DNA of 64,000 bases from Kineothrix sp. MB12-C1. Lineage in GTDB: Bacteria > Bacillota > Clostridia > Lachnospirales > Lachnospiraceae. Below the pieces are notes generated by a model, which worked only from the letters and a program-made list of their open reading frames with translations, was not told the DNA's origin and made no database searches. Position numbers and translations under genes: made by a program. Shown piece after piece: positions 4,850-46,408 of this stretch. Position 1 is the first letter of the stretch; each line of letters opens with the position of its first letter. The DNA lies in the NCBI RefSeq assembly GCF_030863805.1, contig NZ_CP132957.1:1922001-1986000 (forward strand), written 5' to 3'.

Positions 4850-4888
4850 ATCTATATTCCATCCTGTATGTAGAGTAAAGGTATAAAA

Positions 4889-4925
4889 AAGGATGAATGT
4901 ATCTTCTGCTTACATTCATCCTTTA
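4889..4925 (-). terminator. Rho-independent terminator of glgB
   Basis: A 14-bp perfect stem (4889-4902 and 4912-4925) with a 9-nt loop is followed on the minus strand by a T-rich run. It lies between the glgB stop and the start of the large flagellar-operon gene. Confidence 0.85.
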
Positions 4926-4952
4926 TTTCGGCATAAACTTCTATTTTCTTAA
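4926..4952 (-). promoter_or_regulatory. Putative sigma-28 (SigD/FliA) promoter of the flagellin operon
   Basis: On the minus strand TAAG, 15 nt, then GCCGAAAT closely fits the sigma-28 consensus (TAAA-N15-GCCGATAA). The -10 element abuts the terminator stem, so the start point would fall inside the 5' arm of the glgB hairpin. RNA starting there would lack part of that arm and should escape termination. Confidence 0.6.
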
Positions 4953-4986
4953 CCTTTCGTTCCATAAACCATAAAGATATTACCTC

Positions 4987-6912
4987 TTAGAACACAAATA
5001 CCGCTACCCCATACGCAGGTAAATCGAAGGTAATGCTAAAATCTTTGTAATTGACCTTTTCCTTGATAGCTGTCAGTTCTTCCGGAATCTCACTGCCGCT
5101 TCCTCCGAATATTACTTCATCGCTATTCAACACAAGTTTATATTTTTTCTTTTCCGGCACACCGACCTTATAGTCTTCGCGCATTACCGGTGTCATATTT
5201 AGTACAAATAACAGGTTATTCTTACCATTTTCTGCTCTTCTGACGAAGCTATACGTACTTCTTTCCGCATCATCCGCATTCAGCCATTCGAAGCCTGCCC
5301 AGGAATTATCGATTTCATATAGGCACGGATACTTATTATATAGCTTTAACAGCTTCTTCACATATTCGTGCATTCCCTTATTATTAGGTTCTTTAAGCAG
5401 ATGCCAATCCAGCTCTCTTTCCTCACTCCACTCTCTTTCCTGAGCAAAATCCTGTCCCATAAAAAGAAGCTTTTTTCCGGAATGACCGAACATATAGGCA
5501 TATCCCACTCGCAGGTTCGCATATTTATCCGAAGAATATCCGGGCATCTTATTTACCATGGAGCATTTCAAATGTACTACCTCATCGTGAGAAAGGGGTA
5601 AAATATAATTCTCAGATTCATTATAACTCATCGCAAAAGTCATAGCATAATGGTTGTTCTTACGAAAAAGCGGATCCAACTTCATATATTCACAGAAATC
5701 ATGCATCCATCCCATATTCCATTTGAAACTAAAACCAAGTCCATCCTCTTCTACCTTGCCGGTTACCATAGGCCATGCTGTAGATTCCTCAGCGATCGTA
5801 AGAAATCCGGGGTAAGTACCGAGTATTACGGAATTCATATGTTTAAAGAATTCGATAGCTTCCAGATTCTTGTTTCCGCCGTATTTATTGGCAACCCATT
5901 GCCCTGCTTCCTTCCCATAATCCAGATATAACATGGACGCTACTGCATCCACACGAATACCATCCACATGGAATTCTTTCAACCAGAATAACGCATTTGC
6001 AATAAGAAAATTCTTCACTTCTGTCTTACCGTAATTGAAGATTTTCGTTCCCCAGTCAGGATGCTCTCCCAGACGCTTATCGGGGTGTTCGAAGATACAT
6101 TGTCCATCAAACTCTGCCAAACCGTGCTCATCCGTTGCAAAATGTGCCGGTACCCAATCTAAAATTACACCAATCTCGTGCTCATGCAGCTTATTCATTA
6201 AATACATAAAGTCCTTAGGCTCTCCATAACGAGAAGTAGGAGCATAATAACCCGTCACCTGATATCCCCAGGATCCATCATAAGGATATTCCGCAATACC
6301 CATAAGCTCCACATGGGTGTACTTCATTTCTTTTAAGTATTCAACAATTCTATCCGCAAATTCTCTATAATTATAAAACCCATCCGGGGTATTTTGATGC
6401 TTCATCCATGAACCGATATGGCACTCGTAAATCGCAAGGGGCTCCTTATTATAATCCTTATCCTTTCTTGCTTTCATCCAGCTATCGTCTGTCCACTGGA
6501 ATCCTGATAAATCTGTTGTTTTAGACGCATTCCCCGGTCGAAACTCTGCATAATTGGCAAAGGGGTCCGCTTTATAAAGCTTTCTTCCATCCGGTGTCCT
6601 AATTAAAAACTTATATAATTCATTGACTTCCACGCCCGGAATGAACAATGCATGAATGCCGCCGGGCCCCAGCCTTTTCATCTCATGTTCTTCTTCATTC
6701 CAATCATTAAAGGATCCTATGACATGTACACTCTGCGCATTGGGAGCCCATACTCCGAAAAACATTCCTTTTTCCCCATCTTCCACCGAAGGATGTGCGC
6801 CTAGCTTCTTGTAAATATCGTAGTGCGTTCCTTCCGCGAAAAGATATTGATCCGCTTCAGAAATAAAGACTTCCTCTTCTATTACTTGTAACTTCTTTTT
6901 TACCGCTGCCAT
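4987..6912 (-). CDS. glgB: 1,4-alpha-glucan branching enzyme
   Basis: 641 aa from ATG 6912 (AAAGGA about 9 nt upstream; an in-frame ATG at 6921 is too close to it). It transfers alpha-1,4 glucan segments to make alpha-1,6 branches in glycogen. An N-terminal CBM48-like domain (GVWAPNAQSVHVIGSFNDW near residue 50) precedes a GH13 barrel with the nucleophile in DGIRVDAVASM, the acid/base in LTIAEESTAWP and the transition-state Asp in LPLSHDEVVH. The C-terminal beta domain ends AYGVAVFVF. Length is normal for the family. It lies 19 nt downstream of the TPR/AAA-like gene and ends in the hairpin at 4889-4925. No other glycogen gene is in the window. Confidence 0.97.
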   Translation of the reverse strand: MAAVKKKLQVIEEEVFISEADQYLFAEGTHYDIYKKLGAHPSVEDGEKGMFFGVWAPNAQSVHVIGSFNDWNEEEHEMKRLGPGGIHALFIPGVEVNELYKFLIRTPDGRKLYKADPFANYAEFRPGNASKTTDLSGFQWTDDSWMKARKDKDYNKEPLAIYECHIGSWMKHQNTPDGFYNYREFADRIVEYLKEMKYTHVELMGIAEYPYDGSWGYQVTGYYAPTSRYGEPKDFMYLMNKLHEHEIGVILDWVPAHFATDEHGLAEFDGQCIFEHPDKRLGEHPDWGTKIFNYGKTEVKNFLIANALFWLKEFHVDGIRVDAVASMLYLDYGKEAGQWVANKYGGNKNLEAIEFFKHMNSVILGTYPGFLTIAEESTAWPMVTGKVEEDGLGFSFKWNMGWMHDFCEYMKLDPLFRKNNHYAMTFAMSYNESENYILPLSHDEVVHLKCSMVNKMPGYSSDKYANLRVGYAYMFGHSGKKLLFMGQDFAQEREWSEERELDWHLLKEPNNKGMHEYVKKLLKLYNKYPCLYEIDNSWAGFEWLNADDAERSTYSFVRRAENGKNNLLFVLNMTPVMREDYKVGVPEKKKYKLVLNSDEVIFGGSGSEIPEELTAIKEKVNYKDFSITFDLPAYGVAVFVF

Positions 6913-34020: not shown

Positions 34021-35691
34021 GATAGCGTAAATTTACTGTAGGATTTAATTGGGTAGAGAATCCCCTTGATGTGTTTTAGATTTAACCTCTTTTCACAATA
34101 TACCTACTTTCTATTCTTTTTACAATCCCCAAATGTGGTTTTTAAAATAAGCTATCTTTTTCACTTCTGGAAAGGGAATGCTATGAGTTATCCTTTCTAC
34201 ATAGCGTTGTTCCTCTGTCAGTCGCTTGCTTTCCGATCGAAACATCTCGCTGCTTAAATAGATTCTTTCTTCTGTACCCACTGCCATGGGCAACTCCTGC
34301 TTTTGCATTCTCACCAACTCCAACATATTTCCTTTGTTTGCTTTATAAATCCTTAGCTTTGCCATTTGGTGAACTCCATGCTTACTCCACCCTAATGGTC
34401 TGGAACTCATCCTGTCTGCGTAGATATGGCTCACATGTCCTTCTGCACTGCATCCCACTTGTGTTTCTTTATTTCTCAAACCCTGCATGATCCCATCCCA
34501 ATGCCCTAGGATATAAGCCATACTACTTTCTACCTTTTTCCTTTGTGCTTCGTTTTCTGTTATATTCAGGATTTTTTCAAAGGTCTCGGATGCCATCCAT
34601 TTCGCTCTCTTGTGTATGGCACCATACAGTTCACTTCTTGCATCCTCTGACGAATCCATTAAATGCGAAGTTGCTGCTGTGATATATTTCTGCATATGGA
34701 ATTTATCCAGTACGAAGGTTGATCCGGCTATAAATTTACGTCCGCTTTTTATCCAGGCTGCACCATCTCCATTAATATAAATCTGTTTTATGGCATCCAT
34801 GTCATAGGTGGCGCTGATATACTCATAAATCTCTCGCCAGAACTGTTCTACTCCTTTGCTTCCCTCATATATGCCCCCAAAGTACTTCGGATTGATCAGC
34901 TTAAACCTTTCGCTTTTAGGCGCTTCTGATTCCGCACCTTCATATACATAGGCTATTTTAGGCATACTGGTGTTGCTTCGAGGTTTCGTGATATCTCCCT
35001 TTTTCTCGAGATACTGCAATGACACATGATCTTCATCTGCATCAATATAAAGATAGGAAACCTGTTTTTTATTCTCTATTTTTTCTGGTTTTGTATGAAA
35101 TTTCAGATCATGTATCTTATTTTTTACTGTCTGTTTGCTGACTTTTTCGGAAAGACTGGCTCTGATTCCTCCTTTGCGATAGCTACTGTCGACCGCTTCC
35201 TCAAGCATCTGCGCCTGTGCATCTTCTGTCATCCTTACATGGCTTTCTAATCCCATGATCCGATCTAGCAGATATTCACAGGCTCCAGTCTTCTTGTTCT
35301 TAAACAGTGTCTTGCAATATCTCACAGTTCCAAGGCTGGTAATCAGGGATGTTTCATCTCGTCTGCTTATGACCCAGTTTCTCCTTCTGTATCCGCTGTT
35401 TCTCAGTTCTTCATCCATACTTTCAAAAGTCTCCGCAATCATGTCCAGTCCTAACTGTACTACACTATCTGTAATTCCATAGATAAACTCTGCTTGTTGT
35501 TGAGGATCTTTCAAAAACTTTTCCAGAACTCCTGTTAAATTTTTTGCCCCATTTTCTTCAAACTGTTGTATACTTTTAATCATAGAGAGCACCTTCCTTT
35601 GTGTCCGATTTTTTCTTAGTCGTTAAAATCATAACACAAAGAGGCGTTCTCTTTTTATTCAATTAATATCCTACAAAAACTTTACGCTAGC
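34021..35691 (-). mobile_element. Complete ISLre2-family insertion sequence
   Basis: 1671 bp bounded by terminal inverted repeats: the left end GATAGCGTAAATTTACTGTA and the right end (reverse complement) GCTAGCGTAAAGTTTTTGTA agree at 20 of the first 24 positions. Flanked by perfect 9-bp duplications TTCTATCTG (34012-34020, 35692-35700). Contains one full-length transposase gene. Inserted 28 nt after the D-lyxose isomerase stop. Confidence 0.93.
34120..35583 (-). CDS. ISLre2-family transposase
   Basis: 487 aa from ATG 35583, with AAGGAAGG 8 nt upstream (GTG at 35592 is less likely). The protein reads as an ISLre2 (UPF0236-like) transposase: YRRRNWVISRRDETSLITSLGTVRYCKTLFKNKKTG, then LYIDADEDHVSLQ, IYINGDGAAWIKSGRKFIAGSTFVLDKFHMQKYI (DDE-type acidic residues in these two blocks) and a final GCSAEGHVSHIYADRMSSRPLGWS. 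Full length for the family, with no stop or shift, so the element may still be active. Confidence 0.93.
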   Translation of the reverse strand: MIKSIQQFEENGAKNLTGVLEKFLKDPQQQAEFIYGITDSVVQLGLDMIAETFESMDEELRNSGYRRRNWVISRRDETSLITSLGTVRYCKTLFKNKKTGACEYLLDRIMGLESHVRMTEDAQAQMLEEAVDSSYRKGGIRASLSEKVSKQTVKNKIHDLKFHTKPEKIENKKQVSYLYIDADEDHVSLQYLEKKGDITKPRSNTSMPKIAYVYEGAESEAPKSERFKLINPKYFGGIYEGSKGVEQFWREIYEYISATYDMDAIKQIYINGDGAAWIKSGRKFIAGSTFVLDKFHMQKYITAATSHLMDSSEDARSELYGAIHKRAKWMASETFEKILNITENEAQRKKVESSMAYILGHWDGIMQGLRNKETQVGCSAEGHVSHIYADRMSSRPLGWSKHGVHQMAKLRIYKANKGNMLELVRMQKQELPMAVGTEERIYLSSEMFRSESKRLTEEQRYVERITHSIPFPEVKKIAYFKNHIWGL

Positions 35692-35728: not shown

Positions 35729-36409
35729 TTATTTTGCCTTCGGATATTCAGTACAAAGAAGTCTGTAAGGCGGCTCATCCTCTTCAATAGTCGGAAATCT
35801 TCCCATTTCCTCATAGAAACGGTTATCTGTAGTATCATCGTTACACATGGATACTTCTCCGATAAGAACATCTCCTGTACCTTCTTTAACATCGAAATCA
35901 TGGTATTGATGGGGCCATAAAGTAATGCTTTCTCCGGGCTTAAGCTCTACTCCTGTTCCCGCTTTAACATAATAAGATCTTCCATCGGAGTTCACCAATA
36001 CATCGCTATCGTCAAAGGTACCATCTCCTTTGTCATTATATACATGTATCACTAAAGTTCCTCCTCCCCGATTAATAATATCTTCGCTTTTTGTCCAATG
36101 AAAATGCATCGGAGAATGCTGTCCCTCTTTTAGCATCAATAACTTCTCGGCATACACCTTTTTATATTTCTCATTTCTTTGGTTTCCATTTCTCAAGGTG
36201 ATTAAAGCAAATCCCAGCTCTTCCCAGTTTCCCAACCCATAATCCGTAATATCCCAACCTAGCATATTGTCTCTGATTTCATCGTACTCTTCCCCTTTAT
36301 CTTCCCATTCTTCCGGTGTCCAATTGCAAAAGGGCGGGAGTTTGAAACCATGCTCTGCAATCAACGCCTCCATATATCTGATACTTTTATTAATTTCCGA
36401 TCTCTTCAT
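35729..36409 (-). CDS. D-lyxose ketol-isomerase
   Basis: 226 aa. It interconverts D-lyxose and D-xylulose (often also D-mannose and D-fructose). Cupin-fold residues are clear: SPMHFHWTKSEDIINRGGG provides metal-binding His, His and Glu, and WPHQYHDF the fourth ligand. NWTPEEW and LGWDITDYGLGNWEELGFAL near the N-terminus are family hallmarks. Last gene of the sugar series, 17 nt after the chemoreceptor stop. Its product, D-xylulose, is the substrate of XylB. Confidence 0.93.
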   Translation of the reverse strand: MKRSEINKSIRYMEALIAEHGFKLPPFCNWTPEEWEDKGEEYDEIRDNMLGWDITDYGLGNWEELGFALITLRNGNQRNEKYKKVYAEKLLMLKEGQHSPMHFHWTKSEDIINRGGGTLVIHVYNDKGDGTFDDSDVLVNSDGRSYYVKAGTGVELKPGESITLWPHQYHDFDVKEGTGDVLIGEVSMCNDDTTDNRFYEEMGRFPTIEEDEPPYRLLCTEYPKAK

Positions 36410-36425: not shown

Positions 36426-38123
36426 TCAGTGAAAATATGATATGTTATTAGTGAGCTCTTGAGAAAGTCTGAATATTTCTTTTGTCAATCCGACCATCTG
36501 ATTGACTGAATCGGTTGCATGAATAGATATTTCCAGTGTATTTTCTGAATAAATGGAATTCTTATCCGATTCTTCCAGCAGAAGTCCCATATGGTTGCCG
36601 AGATACTCTTTTGTACTATTTATCTGGGAAATATCACTCGCCAGGGCTTTTACATTTTGTGATAAAACTGTGATATTTTCTTCCAGGTTATCAAAAATAG
36701 TCTTCGTGTTGTTCACACCCCTTACCTGCTCTTCCATGGCATAGTTCACATCTCCCATCACCTGTACCGAAGTCCCTGTTTCTTTAAGCAGATTCGTAAC
36801 AATTTGCTCTATCTTTTTTGCTGATATAGTGGACTGATCCGCTAAAGATTTAATCTGTCCCGCCACGACTGCGAATCCCTTGCCCAATTCGCCTGCTCTT
36901 GCCGCTTCTATGCTCGCATTTAACGACAATAGATTCGTTTCTTCCGAAATATTAGTAATTAATGTTGTCGCTTCTTTAATCTCTTGAGCCGAACGATTCG
37001 TAACATTTGTTTGCTTGGAGATAGTATTTATATAACCCATGGAATTCCTCGTTATATCTTCCAATTCACTCAAAATTACCCTCGTTTCTTTTCCCAAATC
37101 AAAATTTCTTTCCGACATTTTCCTAATTACCTCTATGCTTTGCAACGACCTATCGATATATTGATTCATAGTATGCATATTCTCATCTACACTTTTCATC
37201 GTTTCTGCCTGTATATTGGCAGATTTCCGGATATTCTGACTGGAAGAGAGCATTTCATTGGCCGTATGCTTCGTTACATCGGAAATTCCCTGCATTTCAT
37301 CGGATACCTTATGTAAAATATTTGCTTTCTCTTTAATCGAGGATATCACTTCCTTCAATTTCTCCTGCAACCGCTGCGTATCGTTGGACAAATCTCCTAT
37401 TTCATCTTTTCTATTCCCTATAAGAGCTGTCTTCATTTCCAGCTCTCCTTTAGATAATCCATTCAGGCAGTCTCTGGCTTTTGTCAGATTCTTTAATGTA
37501 GATCTTACAAATAGAATAGAAATAAAACAGAAAATAGCGAGAATCGCTGTCAGCATTCCTATATTCGTATAGATAGTCGTGCGCATAAGAACCTGCATAC
37601 GTTCCATATCGCGTACCGCTATTAAAGTGCCCGCGGCCGCCCCTGATTCCGGCTGCATAATCGGTATCGCATATGCATGATATTGTCTTCCTTCAATGTC
37701 GACTTTCTCTGCAAATATTTCTTCCCCATTCTCGTTGACCCGGGCAGTTATTTGATCTATATTTACAAAATGAGCAAGCCTGTTTTCTTCTTTATCTTTC
37801 ATAGACGTAACAATCGGCTCATCTCCAAAATAAAATATAATATCTATCCCCGTTTTTTCTTTTAAGCTATCCAACAAAACGCCTGAATCCGAAACATTAA
37901 AGTTCATTCCCCTCCAGACATTCCCGTCTTCTTTCAAGGCATAATCTCCGTATCCTTGTGTACTATAGAGATTAGATGCGGAAATTGCGACCATTCTTAA
38001 GCCTTCCTCAATCTCCTGATATAAACCTTTGGAAAATTGCATCTGGCTGATAAGCAGTGAAAATATACTGGTAATTACTATCGGTGCTATAGATAATGTT
38101 AAAATTTTCCCTCGCATTTTCAT
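36426..38123 (-). CDS. Methyl-accepting chemotaxis protein
   Basis: 565 aa. A membrane segment near residue 10, a periplasmic-type single-Cache-like domain (residues 30-185: SNLYSTQGYGDYA to GAAAGTLIAVRDMER), a second segment near 190-210, a HAMP linker (LKNLTKARDCLNGLSKGELEMKT) and the signalling tail with hairpin tip [40 protein letters not shown]. Encoded between the sugar-binding lipoprotein and the isomerase, so I infer chemotaxis to the same sugar, perhaps through the binding protein. Confidence 0.93.
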   Translation of the reverse strand: MKMRGKILTLSIAPIVITSIFSLLISQMQFSKGLYQEIEEGLRMVAISASNLYSTQGYGDYALKEDGNVWRGMNFNVSDSGVLLDSLKEKTGIDIIFYFGDEPIVTSMKDKEENRLAHFVNIDQITARVNENGEEIFAEKVDIEGRQYHAYAIPIMQPESGAAAGTLIAVRDMERMQVLMRTTIYTNIGMLTAILAIFCFISILFVRSTLKNLTKARDCLNGLSKGELEMKTALIGNRKDEIGDLSNDTQRLQEKLKEVISSIKEKANILHKVSDEMQGISDVTKHTANEMLSSSQNIRKSANIQAETMKSVDENMHTMNQYIDRSLQSIEVIRKMSERNFDLGKETRVILSELEDITRNSMGYINTISKQTNVTNRSAQEIKEATTLITNISEETNLLSLNASIEAARAGELGKGFAVVAGQIKSLADQSTISAKKIEQIVTNLLKETGTSVQVMGDVNYAMEEQVRGVNNTKTIFDNLEENITVLSQNVKALASDISQINSTKEYLGNHMGLLLEESDKNSIYSENTLEISIHATDSVNQMVGLTKEIFRLSQELTNNISYFH

Positions 38124-38220: not shown

Positions 38221-39225
38221 TTATAAACCGTCCTTCGTAATAACAGAAACTCCTGTATCTGTAACCTTTCCGCCGAAGCTTTCTCCTCCCAATACTGCTA
38301 CTGCTGCCTTCAGACCTTCATATCCCATTACGTCCGGGTTCTGAGCCATAGTCGCCAATAAGTAACCGTTTTTGATTAAAGATAAAATAGTATCTGATTT
38401 ATCGAAGCCTACGCCTACTACATCATCGCCTGCTTCCTGAATGGCATTGCCGACTCCGGTAGTAGAACCTTCATTCGCTCCGAAGATTCCTACGCATCCA
38501 CTTGTAATGTAGTTTGCCGCAATGTCTTTCGATTTCGCCGCATCACCTTCACTATACTGCGTTTCGAGAAGTTCGAAATCAGTTCCTTCAAAAGCGGAAC
38601 GGAAACCAGTCTCGCGCGCTACGCAGGATGCTGTAGCAGCATTTACATTGACAATACCGATTTTACCGGAGGTTACTCCTTTATCCGTGAATGCCTTTAA
38701 CATCTCTTCCCCTGCTGTTTTGCCGGCTGCCTGATTGTCTGTGGCAAACGTTACTTCACCTTCGAAATCTGCTGCCGAATCCACATAAATAATCTTTACT
38801 CCTGCCGCCACTGCTTCTTCTAATGCTGCCGTAACCGCATCCGGTCCATTTGCTGCCAGAAGAATTGCATTTGCATTATCCGCTACTGCATTGTTAATAC
38901 ATTCTATCTGTTTCGCATCATCCTTCACATCGGGAGCAAGCCACTTGTATTCCACATTCGGAAAATCCTTCACAGCTTCTTTACATCCCGTATCCACGTT
39001 TACCCAATGCTGATCCATCTGGTCCATCGTAATCAAATAAACTTTATAAGTTTCTGCTGATGTATCTTCTGCTACTTCCTCCTTCGCAGGTGCCTCTGCA
39101 ACCTCTTCCTTTGCCGGTGCCGTACTTGTCTCTGCCGCAGGTGCCGCATCCTTACTTCCGCAGCCCGCCAACATGGATACTGCAAGAACAGCACTTAACA
39201 ATACGCTACATAATTTTCTCTTCAT
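38221..39225 (-). CDS. Sugar ABC transporter substrate-binding lipoprotein (RbsB-like)
   Basis: 334 aa with a lipoprotein signal (LAVSMLAGCGSKD, lipobox LAGC). The mature protein begins with a linker in which APAKEEVAE occurs twice, then a type I periplasmic-binding fold (YKVYLITMDQMDQHWVNVDTGCKEAV to TGVSVITKDGL) with GANEGSTTGVGNAI and GFDKSDTILSLI blocks of the ribose/galactose-binding family. Ligand: probably a pentose such as D-lyxose or a relative, inferred from the downstream isomerase. Confidence 0.9.
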   Translation of the reverse strand: MKRKLCSVLLSAVLAVSMLAGCGSKDAAPAAETSTAPAKEEVAEAPAKEEVAEDTSAETYKVYLITMDQMDQHWVNVDTGCKEAVKDFPNVEYKWLAPDVKDDAKQIECINNAVADNANAILLAANGPDAVTAALEEAVAAGVKIIYVDSAADFEGEVTFATDNQAAGKTAGEEMLKAFTDKGVTSGKIGIVNVNAATASCVARETGFRSAFEGTDFELLETQYSEGDAAKSKDIAANYITSGCVGIFGANEGSTTGVGNAIQEAGDDVVGVGFDKSDTILSLIKNGYLLATMAQNPDVMGYEGLKAAVAVLGGESFGGKVTDTGVSVITKDGL

Positions 39226-40299: not shown

Positions 40300-41811
40300 T
40301 TATGCTCGCGCTGCAACCTTTTTCTCAAAGCTGGTTGCATATTTCAGGATAGCGTCTTGGGTTGCGTCTTCTGTATTTATTTCTCCCGTTACCTTGCCAT
40401 CACACATTATAATGATTCTATCGGAAATTCCCATAACCTCAGGCATTTCTGATGAAACAAATAATACTCCGATCCCCTGCTTTTTTAACTCATTCATCAA
40501 GTTGTAAATCTCTACTTTGGCAGCTACGTCAATTCCCCTCGTAGGCTCATCGAAAATAACTACTCTTGAATTTCTGGCAAGCCATTTTCCTACAACGACT
40601 TTCTGCTGGTTGCCTCCCGATAGGCTTCCTGCATTTATTTCTGTATTAGGAGTTTTTATCCTTAAGTCATTGACCGCTTTCATTGTCATGGCTTTTTCTT
40701 TTTTCCGGTTTACGATTCCCAGCTTATCGCATAAAATGTCCAGATTAGGAAGGGAAATGTTCTCTTTTATACTCAGCTTCGTACATAATCCATCCTTTTT
40801 CCTATCTTCCGGAGCAAGAACAATGCCTGCTTTAATCGCATCCATCGGCTTATGAATTACAACCGTTTTACCATCCAGGATAATTTCTCCCGATTCTTTT
40901 ACATCCACTCCGAAGATTGCCCTCGTTGTCTCTGTTCTTCCGGCCCCCATCAAACCTGCAATTCCTACGATTTCCCCTTCATACAAGTCGAAGCTTACAT
41001 CTCTTACCATCTTCCCTGCATTAAGATTTTTTACTTCGAATATCTTTTTCCCCCGTTCACAAACTACTCTCGGGAACTTCTCTTTAATTTCACGCCCTAC
41101 CATATTGGCTATTATTTCTTCCAGATTCGTATCCGCGAAATCCATACTCGTTATGTACTGCCCATCCCTTAGAATGGTAACTCTATCCACAATATGCCGG
41201 AGTTCCTCAAGCCTATGTGAAATATATACGATGGCACATCCTTCCGCTTTCAATTGCTTGATAATACGGAATAAATCATCAATTTCCTTGGATGTAAGGG
41301 CACTTGTCGGCTCATCCATAATCAATATCTTAGCATCCGTGGAGAGCGCTTTCGCTATTTCCACCATCTGCTGCTTTGATACCGCAAGATCTCCCACTAC
41401 GGTATCGGGTGAGATATCCATATTCAACTTATCCAATATGCTTTTAGCTTGTTTCTCCATTTCCCTATCGGAAAGAATACCGGATTTTGTTTTCTCTCTT
41501 CCTAAGAAGATATTTTCTGCCACCGTTAAATGAGAGCACATATTTAATTCCTGATGTATAATGGCAACTCCGAGTTCCTGAGCTCTTTTGGGAGACATAT
41601 CATGCACTTCCTCCCCTCGAATCCTTATGGTTCCTGAATCCTTTTCATAGACACCGCTTAAGATTTTCATAAGGGTAGATTTACCGGCTCCGTTTTCTCC
41701 AAGAAGTGCCAGTACTTCCCCTTCCTTCAAGTTGAAGTTGACATTATCCAGAGCCAATACACCCGGGAAACATTTACTTACTCCGTCTATTTCAACGATA
41801 TATTCTCCCAT
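40300..41811 (-). CDS. Sugar ABC transporter ATP-binding protein (RbsA-like)
   Basis: 503 aa with two ABC domains. Domain 1: Walker A LLGENGAGKSTLMKIL, Walker B ILIMDEPTSALT. Domain 2: IVGIAGLMGAGRTETTRAI, signature GSLSGGNQQKVVVGKWLARN, Walker B VVIFDEPTRGIDV. The second Walker A lacks the usual GKST, as in all RbsA-type proteins. It drives uptake through the RbsC-like permease. The 360-nt gap upstream is unusually structured. Confidence 0.95.
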   Translation of the reverse strand: MGEYIVEIDGVSKCFPGVLALDNVNFNLKEGEVLALLGENGAGKSTLMKILSGVYEKDSGTIRIRGEEVHDMSPKRAQELGVAIIHQELNMCSHLTVAENIFLGREKTKSGILSDREMEKQAKSILDKLNMDISPDTVVGDLAVSKQQMVEIAKALSTDAKILIMDEPTSALTSKEIDDLFRIIKQLKAEGCAIVYISHRLEELRHIVDRVTILRDGQYITSMDFADTNLEEIIANMVGREIKEKFPRVVCERGKKIFEVKNLNAGKMVRDVSFDLYEGEIVGIAGLMGAGRTETTRAIFGVDVKESGEIILDGKTVVIHKPMDAIKAGIVLAPEDRKKDGLCTKLSIKENISLPNLDILCDKLGIVNRKKEKAMTMKAVNDLRIKTPNTEINAGSLSGGNQQKVVVGKWLARNSRVVIFDEPTRGIDVAAKVEIYNLMNELKKQGIGVLFVSSEMPEVMGISDRIIIMCDGKVTGEINTEDATQDAILKYATSFEKKVAARA

Positions 41812-42171
41812 TTATTCCACCTTCCTTCGCAATCTATATGCGACGTTCTTATATTGGGGTCAAAAGGTATTTTGCCCCCAATGATACCTACGGATTGCTA
41901 CGCACTTTGTGCTCTCACAATCCCAACCCTAACTTAAGTTAGGGTACAACATTCGAAATCCGCCCTATTCGGGCTACTTTCTCATGTTTTGCGGGTCCCA
42001 AAGTCATATTTTTTCATGCAAGCATGAAACACATGACCTTTTGACCCTGGTATCATGTTATAAAAAGTATAACACCCGCTACAAATTGGTTGTAGGGGTG
42101 TTTCTTTGGAATAAGGGGGGTATTCTTTTGTTCTTGTTACAGTTCACAGCTTCACCATGAACTGTAACTTT
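41812..42171. other. Structured 360-nt gap upstream of the RbsA-like gene
   Basis: No gene. It holds a hairpin at 41853-41882 (ATTGGGG/CCCCAAT arms with a G-A mismatch), a perfect 20-bp palindrome at 41926-41945 (ACCCTAACTTAAGTTAGGGT), a hairpin at 42012-42029, a stem (42136-42146 with 42158-42168) just after the upstream gene, and the repeat at 41853-42075. It could be an untranslated leader or a mobile repeat. Confidence 0.7.
41853..42075. repeat. ~220-bp repeat with nested terminal inverted repeats
   Basis: GGGTCAAAAGGT at its left end and ACCTTTTGACCC at its right, plus an inner ATGATACC and outer GGTATCAT, are inverted repeats. The right end also recurs (reverse orientation) at 23773-23806 in front of the LytTR gene, including TATAAAA(A)GTATAA. 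Confidence 0.6.
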
Positions 42172-43620
42172 TTATATACTTATCTTAATACTGCCAAAGG
42201 CATCCGGAAGATACTCTTCCTTTACCATTCCGTCTTCCATCAACAATAGCTTGTCCGCTACAAACAAGGAGTCCGAAATGGTGAAGGTTAGGATAACAAC
42301 GGAAATTCCTTTTCTCTTAAGCGTTCTGATCAAATGAATGATATGCCTTCTTACGTACATATCGGCATTAGTAAATGGCTGAACGATAAAAACCACTTTA
42401 GGATTAAGTAAATGTATGCGGTAGTAAACGATATTATAAAGAGATTTCTTATCCAGAGCCTTAATATCGGTTACATATACTTCCTCACCCAGTTCCTTCA
42501 CGTATTCTCTCTGAATACTTCTTTTTACATTCTCCGATATTCTTACATGAGGGGTTTTAAAGTCTAACAGAAAGCTCAGATTGTCAATATAGCTCATATC
42601 ATAAAACAACATCGTTTCGATAGCCTGTTCTCCGATAATACCAAAGTTGGCCTTACTTTTCTTTCTAAGGTTCTTCTTATCTATCACTTCTCTATTCAAC
42701 TCTATGGAACCGCTCTCCAATTCCTTTTCACCGCAGATACAAGAAATGATATCCTGCTGAGACTTTTTGCTCTTATCGTACAATACTACGCATTCTCCCG
42801 GGCGCACACCGAAAGACAGATGCCTCAAGTTCTCTGTGGAAATATTATGAAAATAAATATTTCCTCTGTTCTCTTCCAGTATCTTCTTATCCTTATCCTC
42901 AAAGGAAATCGTATAAGGGATCACGTTTTCTTCCTTCATATCTTTCTTATCAAAGACCTTTATGATCTTCCCGTCTTCCATAAAAGCTGCTCTATGACAG
43001 AAAGGGAAGACCTCCTCATGGTGGTTGCCGAAGTATAAAACGGTATATCCTCTATGTGCCACCTTAACGAGTAGATTCTTGAAGTTCTCCAAATCCCTTG
43101 TGCTCAGAACATTGCTGATATCATCCACTATAATTAACTTAGTTCCTTGAATAATAGCCTTCAGCACTTCGACAATACACCGTTCATATTCTGTCAATTC
43201 CTTACCGAATGCCCTCGGATTCACCTTAACCTCTATCTCCTGCAACAAGAGCATGAGCTGATTAGCCAGAACCTTTTTACTGATACAGTATTTTTTGAAT
43301 CCTTTTCTAAGCACGAAGATATTATCCGTCACCGTAAGATTATCTACCAATCTACTGTTTTGCCCCAATAAATACACCTTATTCTGGCTCTCTTCTGTAT
43401 GGCGGTAGCTATTGACCTGAAGACCGGAAAAGTAAATCCTTCCAAACTTGATCGGTGTGTTTCTGAGAATTAATTGTATGAGCCTTTCCTTCCCATGCTC
43501 ATTAATTCCTATTAATCCAAAGATCTCTCCCTGGAAAATATGCAAGTTAAAGTTATCCAGATTAGTCATATCATTTCCTTCTGTAATGACATTTTCCATG
43601 CGCAAAACTTCTTTCTTCAC
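42172..43620 (-). CDS. Degenerate RbsA-type tandem ABC ATPase, probably regulatory
   Basis: 482 aa from GTG 43620 (SD GGAAGGG, ATG at 43641 also possible). Laid out as a tandem ABC ATPase (EVLRMENVITEG onward; second half from YFHNISTENLRHLSFGVRPGECVVL). The first Walker A reads GINEHGKERLI (Ser/Thr of GKST lost) and its Walker B LIIVDDISN. In the second half Walker A reads YDKSKKSQQDII and Walker B VVFIVQPFTN, and no LSGGQ is recognisable in either. ATP hydrolysis is therefore unlikely. Encoded 43 nt after a YesM kinase and upstream of an intact RbsA, so I infer a signalling or transporter-docking role. Confidence 0.72.
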   Translation of the reverse strand: MKKEVLRMENVITEGNDMTNLDNFNLHIFQGEIFGLIGINEHGKERLIQLILRNTPIKFGRIYFSGLQVNSYRHTEESQNKVYLLGQNSRLVDNLTVTDNIFVLRKGFKKYCISKKVLANQLMLLLQEIEVKVNPRAFGKELTEYERCIVEVLKAIIQGTKLIIVDDISNVLSTRDLENFKNLLVKVAHRGYTVLYFGNHHEEVFPFCHRAAFMEDGKIIKVFDKKDMKEENVIPYTISFEDKDKKILEENRGNIYFHNISTENLRHLSFGVRPGECVVLYDKSKKSQQDIISCICGEKELESGSIELNREVIDKKNLRKKSKANFGIIGEQAIETMLFYDMSYIDNLSFLLDFKTPHVRISENVKRSIQREYVKELGEEVYVTDIKALDKKSLYNIVYYRIHLLNPKVVFIVQPFTNADMYVRRHIIHLIRTLKRKGISVVILTFTISDSLFVADKLLLMEDGMVKEEYLPDAFGSIKISI

Positions 43621-43663
43621 CGCTAGACACACCCTTCCCATAACCTGAAATCTTCAAGTACAG

Positions 43664-44698
43664 CTATCCCTGCTCTGTAATTACCGGCAATGTAATTTCT
43701 ACATCCGTTCCGACACCCTTTGTACTATAAATATATACACCGTACTCTTCTCCGAATAATAGCTTAATTCGATTATTTACATTAATAATGGCAATGCCGC
43801 CCTTTTTCTCCCGCTTCGTTTCCACTAGATCTTCCATGGAATTTGTAAGTAGCTTATTATTCAATTCCTCCAAGATTTCACCCGGTATCCCCATTCCATC
43901 ATCCGATATTCGGATAATCAAACGATCATAAGTACAGTCTATACGAATCCTCAGATTCCCTTTTCCTATCTTAGGTTCTATTCCGTGGTAAATGGAATTC
44001 TCCACAATCGGCTGTAATACCAGCTTGGGAAGAAAAAGATTCAAAGCGGATAAATCATCTTCTTCCTCGTCATATTCTATGCTAAAACTTAGCTTATCTC
44101 CGAACCTGTACTGCTGAATAATGTAATAGTTCTCTATATTCGAGAGTTCATCTTCCAATGTCACCAACTTATCCACATTCGATATCGTATATCGGAAAAA
44201 TGTAGCAAGTGCCTCCGTCATGGATGCCACCCCGTCCATTCCGCTGCAAAGAGCCTCGCTTCGGATGCTCTCCAAAGTATTATATAGAAAATGAGGATTA
44301 ATTTGATTCTGAAGCGCAAGGTACTGAGCCTGCTTCTTAGAGATATTTAAAACCTCCGTTCTGTTCAGGCCTTCTCCAAGCATACGCAATGCCTTATTGA
44401 CATTGGGGCTGATATTCACACTTTCCTCAAGCAGATTATGTACTAAATATCCTTCCATATATAGTTTAATCATTTTATCAATTTGTTTATATTTTCTATA
44501 CACTAATAGATAGCCTGAGTAAGCAAGGAAAGCCTGTATCACCAGACAAAGGATAAAAATGATACGGAATCCCTCCACCCGAAACGCTATGACCAGCATG
44601 GCACCTGCAACCAGCACATGAAATACAGATAATAAAAAAAACCAAAGTTTTATATTCTCGATCAGATACTTCTTATCTCTATTCACAATAATAATCAC
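43664..44698 (-). CDS. YesM-type sensor histidine kinase
   Basis: 344 aa. Two membrane segments (residues about 15-36 and 44-64) joined by only about seven residues, so there is no extracytoplasmic sensor domain. The kinase has the His_kinase motif LQNQINPHFLYNTLESIRSEA (phospho-acceptor His), LVLQPIVENSIYHGIEPK (N-box), ISDDGMGIP and KGGIAIINVNNRIKLLFG. Start among clustered GTG codons is uncertain. Between its partner regulator (26 nt) and the degenerate ATPase gene (43 nt). Confidence 0.93.
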   Translation of the reverse strand: MIIIVNRDKKYLIENIKLWFFLLSVFHVLVAGAMLVIAFRVEGFRIIFILCLVIQAFLAYSGYLLVYRKYKQIDKMIKLYMEGYLVHNLLEESVNISPNVNKALRMLGEGLNRTEVLNISKKQAQYLALQNQINPHFLYNTLESIRSEALCSGMDGVASMTEALATFFRYTISNVDKLVTLEDELSNIENYYIIQQYRFGDKLSFSIEYDEEEDDLSALNLFLPKLVLQPIVENSIYHGIEPKIGKGNLRIRIDCTYDRLIIRISDDGMGIPGEILEELNNKLLTNSMEDLVETKREKKGGIAIINVNNRIKLLFGEEYGVYIYSTKGVGTDVEITLPVITEQG

Positions 44699-44724: not shown

Positions 44725-46335
44725 TCATGAATATATTTTTCTATATTCGTTCGGTTTCAAGTTCGTATATTTCGCAAAACTTTTTGTAAAATGCTTATTA
44801 TCGCTATATCCTACTTCCTCACAAATAGCTGCAACACTTAAGTTGGTATCTTTCAGAAATTCCTTTGCCTTTTCCATACGAAGCTCTGTTAAATATTCGG
44901 AAAAGGTCTTCCCCGTTTCTTTCTTGAACAATGAGCTGAAGTAAGTCGCATTAAATCCCACATAATCACTTACAATCTCCAGGGATACTGCTTCCTTGAA
45001 ATTCTCTCTCATATACTGCTTGGCATCTCTGATAGGTTTATTATCCTCCTGCTGCTTCTCCTCTATCGATCTTCTGAACGATATAATAATTATGCGGGTC
45101 AAATAAGAGAAAATATCTTCCACAGTTCCTATATTCTCGATATCCTCACTGAATCTTTCAAAAAGGCCTTCGGCATCTTTTATCATGAACTTATTCTGCT
45201 TCATCGTAAATAAATAAAGATTCATCGCCTCTTTGGCCATCTGAATGATTTCATGACCTGTCGTATTCTCTTTATTCTTCAACGATGTCTGTAAATAGCG
45301 AATTGCATTTACAAGTAAAGGCTCACTCAACTTTTCCAACGAATCTATCATCTGTTTATTAAAGTCATAGAACAACTGACTATCCGCTACTTCATTCAGA
45401 GATACGTTCTCCCCTTCAATGACCTTGTTGATACCGAGAATAAGTCTTTGTTCGATCGCCCAGGATGCTGTCTTTAAAGAAATGGCAAGTTCGGATATGT
45501 GCTCTTTTGCAATTCCTACTCCTAATGTAATTCTAAGGTTTTCTAAAATATCCTTTTGCAAAAGTAATTCATCCAAAGTGGTTTTTAACTTTTTACGAAT
45601 AATTCTTTTGCTTTCGCTGCCATAGTTAATCATCACGTAACACATACTTCTATCAAAAATACATTCTATTTCATAACATTCATCGGATAGCCTTTTATTT
45701 ACCGCTTGTAGTACCTTATCTTGAATATATGTAATATTACTTTGTAAGGAATCGCTGATTCCATCTATCTTAATTAAAATAATCTGAAAGAATCCCTGCT
45801 TAAACTTATAGTGGTATTCTTTATTGATGATTTCATTTGTTATTTCATCTTTTCTTTTTTCTTTTCGGAATAATACCTCCGTAAAAAAAGCGGATCTTAA
45901 TTTATCCACACTATTTTTAACTGTTATACGATTCTGCTCTTCCGTAGAAAGACGTTCCTTCTTTTCTAAATATGCTGCTTTGATTCTGATCAGTGTATCT
46001 GTCATTTCCGTTTTTTTAATCGGTTTTAACAGATATTCTTTTACCCCGTAGCGAATAGCATTCTGCGCATATTCAAAGTGCCTGTATCCGCTGATAATTA
46101 TAATATCGATATCATCATAGATTTCTCTGGCTCTTCTTATCATTTCCAGCCCGTCATATCCCGGCATCCTAATATCTGTGATAACAATATCAGGATGATA
46201 CTTGCGAATCGCTTCCAGCGCTTCTATTCCATTATGAACAATGGCTTCCACTTGCATATCCAATTGTCCCCAATCTACTAATCTATAAATTAATTGGCAG
46301 ATCTTATCTTCATCATCGGCAATAATAACTTTCAT
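44725..46335 (-). CDS. YesN-type response regulator, AraC output domain
   Basis: 536 aa from ATG 46335 (MKVIIADDEDKICQ), AAGG 8 nt upstream. Receiver residues 1-120: IIADDED, phospho-acceptor in DIVITDIRMPGYDGLE, then the switch Lys in KEYLLKPIKK. Residues 130-430 are a helical linker. The C-terminal 100 residues are an AraC domain (AVSLEIVSDYVGFNATYFSSLFKKETGKTFSEYLTELRMEKAKEFL and VAAICEEVGYSDNKHFTKSFAKYTNLKPNEYRK). It is the first gene of the series and likely activates the transporter genes. Confidence 0.94.
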   Translation of the reverse strand: MKVIIADDEDKICQLIYRLVDWGQLDMQVEAIVHNGIEALEAIRKYHPDIVITDIRMPGYDGLEMIRRAREIYDDIDIIIISGYRHFEYAQNAIRYGVKEYLLKPIKKTEMTDTLIRIKAAYLEKKERLSTEEQNRITVKNSVDKLRSAFFTEVLFRKEKRKDEITNEIINKEYHYKFKQGFFQIILIKIDGISDSLQSNITYIQDKVLQAVNKRLSDECYEIECIFDRSMCYVMINYGSESKRIIRKKLKTTLDELLLQKDILENLRITLGVGIAKEHISELAISLKTASWAIEQRLILGINKVIEGENVSLNEVADSQLFYDFNKQMIDSLEKLSEPLLVNAIRYLQTSLKNKENTTGHEIIQMAKEAMNLYLFTMKQNKFMIKDAEGLFERFSEDIENIGTVEDIFSYLTRIIIISFRRSIEEKQQEDNKPIRDAKQYMRENFKEAVSLEIVSDYVGFNATYFSSLFKKETGKTFSEYLTELRMEKAKEFLKDTNLSVAAICEEVGYSDNKHFTKSFAKYTNLKPNEYRKIYS

Positions 46336-46408
46336 TTTAATACCTTGCCTTTCCACATATGTCTCACATATTCATTACTCGTCACTACACTACATTATAA
46401 AGTATATC

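Follow-up and report, generated by a model that had tools for sequence, protein, structure and literature searches.

A degenerate RbsA-type ATPase paired with a sensorless YesM-type kinase: a putative importer-derived co-sensor in Clostridia

Many Clostridia appear to possess a sugar-responsive switch that relies on a catalytically dead importer ATPase instead of a sensor of its own. The protein, designated PseA, was studied in a 64,000-nucleotide stretch of DNA from Kineothrix sp. MB12-C1 (NZ_CP132957.1, positions 1,922,001 to 1,986,000), referred to as the window. Its best reading is that of a kinase co-sensor which, we infer, relays the state of the importer: a dedicated, non-catalytic, RbsA-derived partner of a YesM-type kinase that would bind the kinase, dock on RbsC or the importer and let sugar act, through the kinase and YesN, on the rbsA operon. 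This is held to be probable, with moderate confidence, because the catalytic motifs are lost, the protein is under purifying selection, its pairing with short kinases is near-obligate, the two proteins co-diverge and one fusion of them exists. Nutrient sensing by kinases without a sensing domain is little understood beyond the antimicrobial-peptide (Bce) case, and sensing by a dead ATPase would be a new wiring of nutrient uptake to gene control. The pseA genes are expected to be annotated as sugar-transporter ATPases, under which label a signalling role would stay hidden.

Results and Discussion

Organization of the locus

The genes lie on the minus strand in the order yesN, yesM, pseA, rbsA, rbsC, rbsB, MCP gene and lyxose isomerase gene (Table 1). 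The coordinates and the order yesN-yesM-pseA-rbsA agree with an earlier, sequence-only reading of this DNA, and the intact RbsA that it placed downstream of pseA is indeed there, with both GENGAGKS and LSGGN. The kinase (PF06580 and HATPase_c) adjoins a regulator with a receiver and an AraC-type domain, as in YesM/YesN (LytS-like) systems. The lyxose isomerase gene in the apparent operon hints at the nature of the sugar. Beside the operon, a 490-aa UPF0236 family protein is encoded (34120-35592, minus strand; PF06782, 223.7 bits), a family linked to mobile elements. The Clostridiales-1 RNA between the predicted -10 element and rbsA, an entry in a table of PMC2864571, has 15 above-cut-off copies in the window's genome and hence looks like a dispersed element.

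Table 1. Features of the pseA locus (window coordinates).
Feature	Position	Strand	Evidence
YesN-type response regulator (receiver + AraC-type DNA-binding domain)	44725..46356	-	Pfam Response_reg, HTH_18, HTH_AraC
Sensorless YesM-type histidine kinase, 344 aa	43664..44698	-	Pfam His_kinase 90 bits, HATPase_c 42 bits; hydropathy
pseA, degenerate RbsA-like tandem ABC protein	42172..43641	-	NCBIfam and Pfam matches, motif alignment
Operator-like direct repeat, AAAGAANNNCCCC twice, 21-bp period; predicted YesN site	42095..42128	-	Conservation across loci
TATACT, predicted -10 element, 23 nt past the second repeat	42066..42071	-	Position and conservation
Clostridiales-1 RNA (Rfam RF01699)	41882-42055	-	96.4 bits, cut-off 48
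Intact RbsA importer ATPase	40300..41811	-	GENGAGKS and LSGGN; 594 bits to PRK10762 RbsA (cut-off 745, not reached)
RbsC-type permease, 332 aa	39277..40275	-	Pfam BPD_transp_2 140 bits
RbsB-type sugar-binding protein	38221..39225	-	Pfam Peripla_BP_4 158 bits
Methyl-accepting chemotaxis protein (MCP), apparently same operon	36426..38123	-	Pfam MCPsignal, sCache_3_3
D-lyxose isomerase, apparently same operon	35729..36409	-	Pfam Lyx_isomer 336 bits

PseA is an RbsA homologue with degenerate catalytic sites

PseA matches the RbsA-type NCBIfam models over nearly its full length (residues 10-479 align to positions 3-489 of PRK13549), which bears out the RbsA-like tandem-ABC layout proposed for it; the best score, 133.8 bits, stays far below the curated family cut-off of 699. 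The protein probably starts at the GTG at 43620, giving 482 aa, since its homologues begin there (MK-E-I-L-R) and GGGAAGGG precedes this codon.

Aligned with 24 intact RbsA proteins, PseA shows GINEHGKE, VDD and, in domain 2, LDKK in the place of GENGAGKS, MDE and LSGG. Its first Walker A retains the Gly-Lys and lacks the Ser/Thr; its first Walker B (LIIVDD) retains the Asp, the Glu being changed to Asp. Neither domain retains its signature region, and the second also lacks its Walker A and the Asp-Glu of its Walker B. The claim that both Walker A/B sets and both signatures had disappeared therefore stands for the latter elements and fails for the Gly-Lys and the Asp of the first domain. The 24 intact RbsA themselves mostly carry GxxGxGRT as their second Walker A, and their first signature likewise departs from LSGG; hence, PseA has to be compared with RbsA and not with a textbook ATPase. 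All 11 RbsA-like paralogues fetched from the window's genome retain the first Walker A. A phmmer search with PseA picked up many single ABC domains; among PDB chains, searches with the window RbsA (at 1e-40) and with profile A3 (at 1e-20) gave no match.

Distribution, selection and new conserved residues

Of 200 genomes of the family, 17, its own included, contain a match to PseA at E <= 1e-40. From the named genomes scanned, 80 loci were retained; 74 of them hold a pseA relative with an identity of >=30%, and L181-L186, which turned out to be ordinary RbsA, were dropped. The carriers include Kineothrix alysoides (84%), Ruminiclostridium cellobioparum, Anaerocolumna, Caproiciproducens, Robinsoniella and Tepidanaerobacter. 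In the phylum, pseA is present in 6 of 397 other genomes, a seventh match (L264, E 1e-42) having been removed as ordinary RbsA. An order-wide search with profile A1 at 1e-60 returned mostly ordinary RbsA, and only five new places above 420 bits were used. No pseA relative was found in a scan of viral contigs.

Within the alignment of the family, the first Walker A is intact in 17 of 164 rows, so nucleotide binding may persist in some members, and the Ser-Gly-Gly of domain 2 is present in one of 164 (L252); counts of 164 exclude a mislabelled ordinary RbsA (L252_225), which counts of 165 include. Two residues near the N-terminus are new: E11 (158/163) and R14 (150/163) hardly vary, and RbsA usually has others at these positions. 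When the pseudo set is scanned in windows of 12 residues, conservation is highest in a core strand (NFNLKEGEVLAL in RbsA), in LTV-DN-F past the first Q-loop, at the N-terminus and in MSY-DN-F past the second Q-loop; all of these but the core strand stand at clearly lower ranks in RbsA. The stretches past the Q-loops contact the coupling helices of the permease in importers; taken whole, they reach conservation percentiles of only 0.82 and 0.66 in the pseudo set. In a quick, unrooted tree, 40 pseudo rows and 22 RbsA rows are split by one branch (support 100), and the pseudo rows closest to RbsA are L252, which keeps all motifs, L267 and L254/L257.

Between the window and K. alysoides, the dN/dS of pseA is 0.048 (kinase 0.046, RbsA 0.027), for a dS of 1.8 that is near saturation; two closer pairs, at 0.064 and 0.026, agree in outcome. 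These ratios show purifying selection on a fold that appears to have given up its active sites. The loss of catalytic motifs would also be expected of a decaying rbsA duplicate; with dN/dS of 0.03-0.06 in three pairs, reading frames that stay open over their full length in several families of the phylum, and new near-invariant residues, such a pseudogene is ruled out for practical purposes.

Pairing with short kinases

By hydropathy, the window kinase is predicted to cross the membrane twice (helices at residues 20-38 and 46-64), with a loop of about 7 residues in between, in line with the earlier description of two membrane helices and no extracytoplasmic domain. This is the architecture of intramembrane-sensing kinases, and the median loop of 92 two-helix kinases is 9 residues.

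The gene immediately upstream of pseA, on the same strand, is yesM in 70 of the 74 named loci; the median gap is -4, for which the first possible start codons were used, biasing it towards overlap. The exceptions are L107 and L108 (order pseA, MCP, YesN, YesM), L146 (contig end) and L121. The pseA homologue of L121 (8001-9455, on a MAG contig) has no kinase within 8 kb and lies downstream of a 921-aa frame that, by eye, resembles isoleucyl-tRNA synthetase. Interrupted reading frames are seen in some deposited sequences (L041/L109 kinase, L108 rbsA, L165 pseA).

The sequence-only reading had suggested a search for conserved pairs of degenerate RbsA and YesM genes. Across 113 kinase loci, 31 reached via pseA and 82 via a kinase search, a full-length degenerate RbsA is the gene next to the kinase in 102. 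A fragment adjoins the kinase in three others (L233, at a contig end; L344, split; L354, truncated), and in L352 the full-length partner stands further downstream. The partner is upstream in the operon in L247 and L347 (half-size in L244), and a half-size partner precedes yesN in L238 and L340. Intact homologues at this position, which would have spoken against the proposal, do exist, but are rare: L252 is the single case in the 113 loci. The weakest partner assignment is L348, at 82 bits to the profile.

When short kinases (<420 aa) were picked by their similarity to the kinase and by no other criterion, an RbsA-like partner was present at 80 of 80 loci, degenerate at 79: 70 full-length and next to the kinase, three adjoining fragments, six elsewhere and one intact neighbour. 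This count excludes L265 (a fusion), L266 and L267, the first and last of which are in the 113-locus table, L266 being left out of both; for L266, a 604-aa kinase from the same search, no partner was found. Among the best 30 kinase matches, a degenerate RbsA-like gene lies within 1.5 kb of 9/9 kinases of <=409 aa versus 0/21 of >=444 aa; the nine include the window's own kinase and several first found via pseA, and two of the 21 long loci touch a contig end. Chance neighbourhood is ruled out by the kinase-first survey and this long-kinase control, and the doubt that the association might be missing in other genomes is contradicted by the named loci and the short kinases alike.

On a quick tree built from 52 short-group and 24 long kinases, two changes of label are required. 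L267, a 565-aa kinase with an external loop of about 218 residues and a degenerate partner, groups with the short kinases; loss of the sensor is therefore not strictly tied to the partner, and L267 is a possible intermediate state. Its kinase gene (4882-6579) is followed by that of an RbsA-like protein with a Walker A and without LSGG.

Co-divergence

Averaged over pairs of the 56 four-gene loci, identity is 0.42 in PseA, 0.43 in YesN, 0.50 in the kinase and 0.73 in RbsA. The divergence of PseA follows that of the kinase (r 0.93), also given RbsA (partial r 0.85, above the 0.75 of kinase and YesN), with a permutation p of 0.001 and a partial r of 0.84 once thinned to 41 loci; co-inheritance accounts for part of this. 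These values bear on an alternative in which PseA acts on the importer, where, as an inactive subunit, it would compete with RbsA for RbsC and so modulate uptake. The RbsA ancestry and the importer genes nearby in 102/113 loci suit such a role, but divergence tracks the kinase and not RbsA, and the kinase fusion, the pairing seen from the kinase side and the loci without RbsA fit it badly, so that it is judged improbable. With the two-way gene pairing, the co-divergence, one fusion and the contrast with long kinases, the link between pseudo-ATPase and kinase that had been proposed is upheld, and a partnership of the two proteins is well supported on these genomic grounds.

Variants of the module and the link to the importer

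In L265, a single 616-aa frame comprises the kinase and a region that matches positions 2-225 of the 483 of the pseudo profile (97 bits), i.e., domain 1; the half-size proteins of L238, L340 and L244 match domain 1 as well.

No helix was predicted for the kinases of 8 out of 108 loci, five incomplete or odd loci (L041, L056, L240, L265, L233) having been dropped from this comparison. An RbsC gene without RbsA is present in 6/8 of these, against a dedicated RbsC in 7/93 two-helix kinases, the label of dedicated RbsC (15 loci) having been assigned by eye once the table had been seen. L244, L247 and L347 carry RbsC with a binding-protein gene, and L249, L268 and L327 RbsC alone; no dedicated RbsC was found in L232 and L345. 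Fisher's test gives p 3e-5 with relatedness ignored; on the tree, three changes are required to account for the helix-less state, and two of the three helix-less lineages carry a dedicated RbsC. By eye, the L244 binding protein has an apparent N-terminal membrane anchor.

In these loci, the kinase could be tethered to the membrane by the permease, with the pseudo-ATPase as the link between them. A tentative extension, to which we give somewhat less than an even chance, is that binding protein, RbsC and pseudo-ATPase form a non-transporting receptor of the kinase, the permease replacing the lost anchor in L244, L247, L249, L268, L327 and L347; the window would then be a mixed system, sharing RbsC and RbsB with a working importer.

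An extra RbsC-like permease gene was noticed between the pseudo-ATPase and a complete importer in L231 (8067-8993; divergent, BPD_transp_2 74 bits), L336, L355 and L372. Double-length RbsB-type proteins with two Peripla_BP_4 stretches are encoded in L051 (2508-4382), L155 (3190-5223) and similar loci, their genes adjoining the module in a subset of Lachnospiraceae.

An RbsC or RbsA gene is present in 102 of the 113 loci. The link of PseA to the importer is thus supported by the neighbourhood, by the loci with RbsC and without RbsA and by the conserved operator-like element before rbsA. PseA might instead be a cytoplasmic ligand or energy sensor of the kinase, holding a sugar, a sugar phosphate or a nucleotide in the old ATP site, the importer genes being a mere regulated target. 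No importer gene is associated with it as closely as the kinase is, RbsC and RbsA genes were not seen in 11/113 loci (some at contig ends), and the first Walker A survives as Gly-Lys in the window copy and intact in the 17 rows mentioned above. The old ATP site is, however, not conserved (Lys of the first Walker A in 78/165 rows, Ser/Thr in 37/165), the A-loop aromatic found in 40/40 RbsA is replaced in most pseudo rows, and the loci with RbsC and without RbsA are left unexplained. This alternative is considered rather unlikely, at about one chance in a handful.

Operator-like element before rbsA

The paired repeats and the hexamer (Table 1) occupy the gap between pseA and rbsA. The repeat is kept at >=15 of 20 letters in 43 of 51 loci, which 1.8% of Markov shuffles reach, a control that is not independent, as the consensus was derived from the window and from relatives later scored. 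A -10-like hexamer lies 22-24 nt downstream of the repeat in 39/51 loci, and both elements are found in 36/51. Within the window's genome, 42095-42128 alone matches perfectly, and one other place has three mismatches; the reversed control pattern has two matches. Similar repeats were seen by eye in some other subfamilies. The element fits an activation of rbsA-rbsC-rbsB-mcp-isomerase by YesN, of which it would be the predicted binding site.

Proposed mechanism

The co-sensor reading can be put as a succession of steps. An ancestral importer ATPase of the RbsA type would have given up its active sites while selection kept the fold. PseA would bind the kinase via its first ATPase domain, a contact placed there because this domain is the one kept in the fusion and the half-size variants, and would dock on the RbsC permease or the importer complex. 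The arrival of sugar would then change the activity of the kinase through the docked PseA; phosphorylated YesN would bind the paired repeats before rbsA and switch on rbsA-rbsC-rbsB-mcp-lyxose isomerase. Direct tests could build on several features of the family: the natural contrast (80/80 short kinases versus 0/21 long ones), the fusion, the variants of half size or without an anchor, and the operator predicted before rbsA.

Comparison with known systems

Among transporter co-sensors, the nearest known analogue is probably UhpC-UhpB, with its transporter-like sensor. PseA resembles RbsA in its two-domain layout and full-length homology, but differs from it by the absence of the catalytic motifs and of the A-loop aromatic and by the new E-x-x-R residues near the N-terminus. 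No description of a degenerate RbsA/YesM pair was found among the literature matches listed, in which subscription journals are thinly covered.

In the co-sensing systems Pst-PhoU-PhoR and DctA/DcuB-DcuS, as outlined in a review (PMC6978683), the state of the transporter reaches the kinase by protein contact. Their partners are working transporters, whereas PseA is a dedicated dead paralogue. The binding-protein three-component systems of Clostridia, CuaD-CuaS-CuaR and XylFII-LytS, resemble the pseA module in that a transport-related protein, a kinase and a regulator govern a sugar importer; as they are described in PMC10384115, however, the binding protein meets the large external domain of a 627-aa kinase. 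The window kinase has no such domain by hydropathy: its loop counts about 7 residues, and its partner is cytoplasmic.

In Bce-type modules (BceAB-BceS-BceR), as outlined in PMC10314905, the kinase depends on co-encoded ABC proteins for its signal. The likeness lies in a kinase without a dedicated sensing domain and in the co-encoded ABC proteins, the output of Bce raising transporter expression. The ATPase of the Bce system, BceA, is however functional, and BceAB deals with antimicrobial peptides; that of the pseA module is a dead, importer-derived tandem protein, its kinase partner is of the YesM type and its neighbours are sugar-importer genes. Where Bce modules pair a functional ATPase with a permease carrying a large external domain, the window has the degenerate RbsA and a BPD_transp_2 permease of 332 aa. 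The pseA module would be a new form of transporter-coupled two-component system.
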